Source of the DNA: Pseudomonadales bacterium
Lineage (GTDB): Bacteria; Pseudomonadota; Gammaproteobacteria; Pseudomonadales; Azotimanducaceae
Length of the DNA stretch: 43,476 nt
Assembly (NCBI GenBank): GCA_028279305.1
Contig: JANQOA010000386.1
Coordinates: 1 to 43,476 of the forward strand
Reading direction: 5' to 3'
Of the stretch, positions 42,263-43,040 are shown one piece after another. The notes under the pieces were generated by a model that saw only the letters and a list, made by a program, of their open reading frames with translations, had not been told where the DNA came from and made no database searches. How positions within the stretch are numbered: position 1 is the stretch's first letter; each line of letters begins with the position of its first letter. Made by a program: the position numbers and the translations under genes.

Positions 42263-42287
42263 CGTGTGGTCAATCTGGTGGACCAAC

Positions 42288-43040
42288 ATGACTGTTACAG
42301 ACATTCTTTCGCTGGCCGGGCTGATTGCGCTGATCACAACCACCACGGTCTGGTTCCAGCGCGCCCGCAACGTCAACATTCCCAGCAACCGCAGCGCGTT
42401 TCTGGCCGGCTGGGCTGCCGCGGGCCTGCTCGGGTTGAGCGGTCTGTTGCTGCAGGGCGGCACGCTGCCGGGGGCCGTGCTCGGCGGCCTGGCGATCATC
42501 GGCAGCGCCTTTTTTCTCGGCTTGTACCTGCTGCGCAAACAAGGCGCAAAAGACAGTATTGCAGTGGGCGACAACATCCCTTCGTTCAGCGCCGCTGACG
42601 ACGCCGGGCAAACCTTCGATTCCGCTGACCTGACCGGCACCCCGGCGCTGATCAAATTTTTCCGCGGCCACTGGTGACCTTATTGTGTCGCCGAGTTACG
42701 GCGATGGGAACAGGATCTGGGTGACGAGCTGCGCAGCCGCGGCCTGAAGATTGTTGCCCTGTGCACCGACTCCCCGCAGCAGATTGCCCAGGGCCGCGGC
42801 AAACACGGCTTGTCGGGTACCTTGTTGTCGGACCGGGATTTAAGCGTGACCGATCTGTTTGGGCTGCGCAACCACAACACCGCGGTGCGGCCGCCGGGGC
42901 TGGCGGGACTGCCCATTCCCACCACGCTGATGGTCAGCGCCCAGGGGCAGGTGCTGTGGAAAGATCAATCCGCCGACTACATGCAACGCAGCGATCCGGA
43001 CTACGTGCGTCAGGCCCTGAACAATCACTTCCCCGCTTAG
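42288..43040 (+). CDS. Peroxiredoxin/thioredoxin-like selenoprotein with in-frame TGA (Sec130)
   Basis: Read through the TGA at 42675-42677 this is a 250-residue protein. Residues 1-24 and about 38-78 are hydrophobic, giving two or three N-terminal membrane spans (ILSLAGLIALITTTTVWFQ, then ALLGLSGLLLQ-like GLLGLSGLLLQGGTLPGA). The AhpC/TSA-like thioredoxin domain follows: DNIPSFSAADDAGQTF, then LIKFFRGHW-U-PYCVAELRRW. The first Cys of the family's CPYC redox motif is replaced by TGA, giving U-x-x-C with Sec at residue 130. After it the frame continues in register: LKIVALCTDSPQQ, LLSDRDLSVTDLFGL and PIPTTLMVSAQGQVLW, then TAG at 43038. A SECIS-like hairpin follows the TGA. No frameshift is needed to link the halves. 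The redox partner is unknown, but Prx-like proteins reduce peroxides or disulfides. An alternative start is ATG 42240 (16 residues longer). Confidence 0.85.
42675..42677 (+). other. TGA codon proposed to be read as selenocysteine
   Basis: This is the only interruption between the ATG at 42288 and the TAG at 43038. It replaces the peroxidatic Cys of the CPYC motif. Cys-to-Sec at this position is the most common pattern in selenoprotein redox families. Confidence 0.8.
42688..42704 (+). other. SECIS-like hairpin after the Sec codon
   Basis: A 6-bp stem, T-CGCCG / CGGCG-A (42688-42693 with 42699-42704), closes a 5-base AGTTA loop and can extend by G-U pairs. Sixteen bases separate the TGA from the loop, and G is the second loop base. 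Bacterial SECIS elements usually have a short GC stem, a small loop with G in the first or second place, and a loop about 16-37 bases after UGA. The codons remain sense (CVAELRRW). Confidence 0.7.

Follow-up and report, generated by a model that had tools for sequence, protein, structure and literature searches.

The 250-codon frame at positions 42288 to 43040 of the window (the whole stretch of 43,476 nucleotides that was analysed, from a Pseudomonadales bacterium) is very probably a real selenoprotein gene. With high confidence, its product is a membrane-anchored selenoprotein in which UGA-130 is read as selenocysteine (Sec), most likely a thiol-disulfide oxidoreductase at the membrane. The frame, the conserved TGA, the hairpin behind it, the selection past it and the Sec machinery were computed; Sec insertion itself, the reaction and the membrane side are inferred. 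The features of the gene are as follows.

42277..42282, forward strand: putative ribosome-binding site GGTGGA, 5 nt 5' of the ATG (read by eye)
42288..43040, forward strand: very probable selenoprotein gene, 250 codons, TGA codon 130 as Sec, true stop TAG (translation)
42294..42368, forward strand: predicted membrane helix 1, residues 3-27 (AlphaFold2 model, hydropathy)
42393..42449, forward strand: predicted membrane helix 2, residues 36-54 (AlphaFold2 model, hydropathy)
42465..42539, forward strand: predicted membrane helix 3, residues 60-84 (AlphaFold2 model; an overlapping hydropathy segment is shifted to 53-71)
42564..42956, forward strand: AhpC-TSA/redoxin domain, residues 93-223, thioredoxin-like fold (Pfam E 1.4e-21; best Foldseek match ResA)
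42675..42677, forward strand: probable Sec-UGA codon, residue 130, N-terminal position of the UxxC motif (TGA in 20 of 20 taxonomic-family matches at E<1e-40)
42684..42686, forward strand: Cys133, second residue of UxxC (invariant in the 18 rows of alignment A3)
42686..42706, forward strand: SECIS-like hairpin with an 8-bp stem, a 5-nt loop AGUUA and G at loop position 2 (folding, codon constraint, pair counts, published model)
42918..42920, forward strand: Pro211 of PIPTT, aligned with the ResA Pro-Thr (profile alignment to 4nmu; invariant in A3)

Reading frame and distribution of the TGA form

Translation of 42288-43040 bears out what the initial annotation had described, namely a single internal stop in a frame of 250 codons (TGA at codon 130, context FRGHW-TGA-PYCVAELRRW), its place at the first position of a CxxC-like redox motif (FRGHW-U-PYC) and redoxin sequence continuing beyond it, the Pfam AhpC-TSA match spanning the TGA. 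The open frame alone is weak evidence, since 11 TGA codons of the G+C-rich window, codon 130 included, are flanked on either side by a long open frame (threshold 110 codons). Chance does not account for the conserved TGA at the active-site codon of the homologues, the hairpin with codon constraint behind it and the downstream dN/dS well below 1.

Regarding the occurrence in relatives, one GTDB genome scan yielded four genes with 53-65% identity, all four with TGA at the same place. Among 97 nearer genomes, eight matched at E<=1e-15, six with TGA (the source genome included) and two with Cys. Within the taxonomic family, 80 of the 206 genomes gave a match at E<=1e-10; the 20 strongest matches (E<1e-40) each had one TGA, kept at this position, the next match (L054) begins 3' of the active site, and the weaker ones mostly have one internal TGA, which in the nine that were read (L055-L063) lies at the same motif position. 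A sample of 390 genomes from the order contained 42 with a match at E<=1e-25. TGA was present in each of the best seven (E<1e-60), of which two (G000 and G038) are already among the 20 above; G638 and G760, which follow at E about 1e-49, have full-length matches with Cys. A sample of 369 genomes from the class gave nine matches, the window itself and eight Cys homologues. The TGA is retained in genes just 38-65% identical to the window gene, and Cys homologues carry CPLC, CPFC or CPYC at the place of U-P-Y-C, so that an in-frame UGA stands where homologues have Cys; one genome (G819) carries the Sec form plus a stop-free homologue.

The window comes from a draft assembly of 399 contigs, but an error of sequencing or assembly, or a genome-wide reassignment of TGA, is extremely implausible, given that the same TGA occurs in many assemblies, including the single-contig genome G909, and that TGA terminates 15 of the 25 window ORFs of at least 250 aa (nested ORFs dropped), which speaks against reassignment and makes TGA look like an ordinary stop.

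A tree built from 70 domains joined two Cys genes (L088/L089) with the 29 Sec genes in one group (support 100/99). The Cys pair adjoins L026 (support 91/78), a placement which suggests that a switch from Sec to Cys may have taken place inside the group; the tree program warned of long branches, and a branch setting the Sec genes apart from all other rows was present in 6% of bootstrap trees. The tree left out L081 and L087 (repeats of L024 and L029), L054 (no active site), L060 (motif not matched) and the genes of the VFYRSAVW-U-PPC type (L118, L119, L123 and L125).

Hairpin, selection and selenocysteine machinery

The 37 bases 3' of the UGA (42678-42714) form a structure of -15 kcal/mol (z -3.29; equalled or bettered by 2 of 200 shuffles), with lower contrast in longer stretches after the UGA (z -2.44, then -1.28). 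The published model of the bacterial SECIS, as given in PMC13188914, comprises a loop of 3-9 nt, a stem of 4-16 bp, a G within the first two loop positions, a spacing of 16-37 nt and an MFE <= -7.5; the hairpin fits every term, its UGA-to-loop spacing of 16 nt being at the lower limit. Stability as such was rejected as proof, being too weak alone: when the window gene was folded in codon steps, 23 of 237 stretches were no less stable (the hairpin stretch itself counted), and the corresponding counts for L027-L029 are 71 of 228, 79 of 228 and 67 of 137.

The better test is codon constraint. At positions with at least 80% amino-acid identity and at least 15 genes, the mean same-codon fraction over the 24 Sec genes was 0.863 for the 9 codons within 131-140 and 0.493 for the 57 codons outside this stretch (Mann-Whitney p 4.6e-6), a count which predates L082-L086, genes that depart at some of codons 131-140. 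Selection on RNA is the best explanation for so localised a block of codon choice. In the full set of 29 genes, with 26 distinct stretches among them, the stem is paired in 91.8% of cells, compared with 89.3 +/- 0.6 in shuffles, none of 500 of which reached the observed value. One stem pair is changed on both sides, from C-G to G-U with pairing kept, in L082-L084; covariation is therefore modest, confined to one of eight pairs and to three genes of one genus, and perhaps reflects one event. In four of the 29 Sec genes (L027-L029 and L085) the fold differs from the window-type hairpin.

Regarding the sequence past the TGA, with the TGA itself and the 11 codons after it left out, dN/dS was 0.038/0.646 (about 0.06) for the pair L042/L047 and 0.093/0.770 (about 0.12) for L044/L050. 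Upstream ratios were higher (0.081/0.394 and 0.161/0.773, respectively), and the upstream frame may include some leader. For pairs with the window gene (L020/L024: dN 0.221, dS about 1.5), divergence at silent sites is too high to give a firm ratio. The 3' half has the pattern of a translated protein under purifying selection.

The source genome (5.7 Mb, 399 contigs, 97.41% complete, estimated 6.56% contaminated) contains selA (E 3.4e-155), selB (E 1.4e-123), selD (E 4.5e-83) and tRNA-Sec (73.3 bits), each over its cut-off; the tRNA is called tRNA-SeC with anticodon TCA by ARAGORN, and selA, selB and tRNA-Sec lie together on contig C329. The G+C content of the sel stretches (0.61-0.63) is similar to that of the window (0.60) and does not point to a foreign contig, although one is still possible. 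Checks proposed in the initial annotation, for selA, selB, selC and selD, for TGA-containing orthologues and for Cys homologues, have come out in favour of its interpretation as a selenoprotein. In translation, SelB would bind the hairpin just after the UGA and bring Sec-tRNA-Sec, by which UGA-130 would be read as selenocysteine.

Among genomes with the Sec form, selA was found at E<1e-150 in 25 of 29 (17 of 20, 4 of 4 and 4 of 5). The four short of a full match were G030 (3e-66), G512 (7e-6), G498 (none) and G786 (none), and in G030, G512 and G498 the search for tRNA-Sec gave no match over the cut-off. Of 19 Cys-form genomes tested, selA was present in one (G071), and it was found in neither G638 nor G760, which hold the closest Cys relatives. 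These 19 consist of the two Cys-form genomes among the 97 nearer ones, the eight of the class sample and nine chosen from the other 33 stop-free genomes of the order sample; most of them are distant, so kinship confounds the contrast between Sec and Cys forms. Co-occurrence with selA inside the taxonomic family was rejected as uninformative, since 176 of its 206 genomes have selA matches (166 over the cut-off).

The main contrary result is G786, a genome of 6 contigs that is 100% complete by markers and carries the TGA form with an intact hairpin (L117, L122). A search of it for selA found none, and the sole over-threshold match in the tRNA-Sec search is a tRNA-Ser according to ARAGORN; a missed replicon or a recent loss would explain this. 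A TGA form lacking detectable selA and tRNA-Sec is also what would be expected after loss of the machinery if the TGA were a real stop, so that the gene would be decayed or would encode a short membrane protein (129 residues), its downstream half being debris. For the window gene such an end at codon 130 is very improbable in view of the selection on the protein 3' of the TGA, the persistence of the codon at the low identities given above and the Sec machinery of the source genome.

Fold, topology and likely reaction

The initial annotation had placed N-terminal membrane segments before a redoxin domain, and three helices followed by that domain are indeed predicted. The AlphaFold2 model (5 sequences) is of moderate quality (pLDDT 70.6, pTM 0.57) and places the three helices before a thioredoxin-like fold, with residue 130 just before a helix spanning 131-150. 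In 22 genes (the truncated L029 and L053 were left out of the counts) the mean number of K+R is 2.82 in loop 1-2 and 0.55 in loop 2-3. By the positive-inside argument these counts would put the redoxin domain on the cytoplasmic side, an argument that is weak because the charges after helix 3 are balanced (1.45 K+R, 1.64 D+E).

The best sequence match is a putative thioredoxin and the best fold match is ResA, whose chains take the top rank in Foldseek (E 8e-9, TM 0.61 by target length). Among solved structures, ResA/TlpA-type oxidoreductases are the best matches by both profile and fold; the profile aligns U-x-x-C with the CxxC of ResA and PVPTT with its PLPTS. The window protein reached 37.7 bits against the ResA model PRK03147 of NCBIfam (cut-off 170) and differs in having three predicted membrane helices and a domain predicted to be cytoplasmic; ResA, by contrast, has one membrane helix and acts outside. 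Cys133 and Pro211 are invariant in alignment A3, made from 18 of the 24 Sec genes that were known before L082-L086. We take Pro211 to have the cis-Pro role of the thioredoxin-type loop, and it is presumably Cys133, not Sec130, that falls at the peroxidatic-Cys position in the peroxiredoxin register.

A classical Sec peroxidase, in which Sec130 reduces hydroperoxides directly in the manner of peroxiredoxin or PrxU, is the less likely though quite conceivable reading. It agrees with the AhpC-TSA and Redoxin matches in all 18 members scanned, with the presence of peroxiredoxins among the Foldseek matches and with the weak match of the window protein to the thiol peroxidase model PRK09437 (E 2.9e-11, 43.5 bits, cut-off 140). 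The Prx motif PxxxTxxC/U, however, is absent from the stretch K123-F-F-R126-G127-H-W-U130-P-Y-C133, where neither U130 nor C133 has a Thr three residues before it or a Pro seven before it. Sec-peroxiredoxins are described in PMC13188914 as having Sec in TxxU (motif PxxxTxxU), whereas the motif here is the UxxC of the Prx-like proteins, which the Sargasso Sea report sets apart from Prx as distant to it and with a thioredoxin-like motif (PMC1088965). To this are added the ResA-like Pro-Thr that aligns in the later loop and the best matches to a putative thioredoxin and ResA. The missing Prx motif and the ResA/thioredoxin-like Pro-Thr loop together make disulfide exchange likelier than classical peroxidase action, and it is on the Foldseek rank and the profile alignment of ResA that the assignment as a thiol-disulfide oxidoreductase is based.

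As such an oxidoreductase, the product would carry, behind its three N-terminal helices in the membrane, a redoxin domain of thioredoxin fold with the active site Sec130-Pro-Tyr-Cys133. Sec130 would attack and Cys133 would resolve the selenenylsulfide, so that disulfides, or similar oxidised substrates, may be reduced or exchanged at the membrane.

Other protein models fit less well. No NCBIfam 20.0 model matched the window protein at its cut-off (for 17 other members, the best E-values alone were listed). Regarding SelL, whose motif is UxxU, the related model NF040769 gave weak matches in 16 of 18 members (best E 2.4e-8) and was not among the matches of the window protein at E<=1, and among Pfam matches at E<=1 the iodothyronine deiodinase-like PF00837 did not occur.

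Relation to known selenoproteins and genomic setting

By domain and motif, the window protein appears to fall in the known 'Prx-like UxxC' kind. The initial annotation was right that Prx-like selenoproteins with Sec at this place had been seen in marine surveys: UxxC members are reported in the Sargasso Sea (PMC1088965) and GOS (PMC2398784) surveys, and also in reviews (PMC9312934, PMC13188914). The term 'new' was accordingly too strong, whereas the claim of a selenoprotein gene stands as very probable. The window protein shares the PF00578 domain and the U-x-x-C motif with these proteins, of which WP_010940744.1 and the GOS sequences are published representatives. The passages on Prx-like proteins in PMC1088965 and PMC13188914 make no mention of membrane helices, of which three are predicted here, and 'transmembrane' has 0 occurrences in the main text of the two papers. 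No publication on a membrane-anchored form of the Prx-like UxxC selenoprotein was found in the open-licence literature, and in a search for the letter string UPYC the matches listed were unrelated papers. Window-type proteins perhaps form a membrane subfamily of their own.

Cys homologues with N-terminal hydrophobic segments are also found (such as L032, L034, L090 and L097, and, closest, L088 and L089). They resemble the window protein in the redoxin domain and in RG-x-W-C-P-x-C, the number of hydrophobic segments ranging from one to three among six that were tested, and differ in having Cys for Sec and about 23-32% identity to the window protein. A plasmid origin was rejected: 75 of 72,556 plasmid records gave a match, but no match covered more than 80% of the query, and in the ten listed the identity was 29-36%; similar plasmid proteins are annotated as 'peroxiredoxin-like family protein'.

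A conserved neighbourhood was likewise rejected as a clue to partners. In 18 loci (17 of relatives plus the window end from 36000, ORFs overlapping the gene excluded), the most widespread neighbour family, of which one member is a short-chain dehydrogenase, occurred in four; the divergent gene in the window is PEP-utilising. An exception is the genus g416, where a second TGA redoxin (VFYRSAVW-TGA-PPCWTQL) adjoins the window-type gene in all three genomes (G842, G909 and G925). The distance of the window-type gene from tRNA-Sec, which adjoins selA and selB, is about 3 kb in G842 and 7 kb in G909 (about 3-9 kb from selA-selB-tRNA-Sec); in G925 gene and machinery are on different contigs, so that the machinery is nearby in two of the three. 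Two TGA redoxin genes of this genus (L118, L123) lie close to selA-selB-tRNA-Sec, forming a small selenium locus.

The source genome has a second TGA redoxin of the same kind (L119, G000:C279:23104-23556, VFYRSAVW-TGA-PPCWTQL), and its relative L118 has AhpC-TSA and DsbD_N-like domain matches after the TGA. Like the window type, the VFYRSAVW-U-PPC type (L118, L119, L123 and L125) has its TGA at the first motif position. Another group of TGA redoxins in the same taxonomic family is the SADW-U-PYC type (L055-L063), which shares with the window type the TGA at the first motif position and a hairpin after it, and differs in its own tree branch (8 rows, 100/99) and in the distance of the hairpin from the TGA. 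That hairpin has both partners substituted in 3 of its 7 pairs and is 95.2% paired (0 of 500 shuffles). These statistics come from nine sequences, all belonging to a single taxonomic family, and are perhaps inflated by relatedness.

Standard gene calling would break up genes of the window type, and the protein is thus easily lost from annotation; the frequency of selA in this taxonomic family makes further unannotated selenoproteins likely there. The 29 Sec genes and the 2 close Cys relatives could seed a family model. Tentatively, they may represent a separate, unnamed subfamily of multi-helix membrane selenoproteins with a cytoplasm-facing Sec site, which would shuttle electrons between soluble thiols and either an oxidised lipid or a partner bound to the membrane, maintained in lineages that keep the Sec machinery and with a Cys branch (L088, L089) where the machinery was lost. 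With Sec forms and Cys forms distributed over genomes that have or lack selA, this is a clear case in which to study why a membrane redoxin uses selenium.
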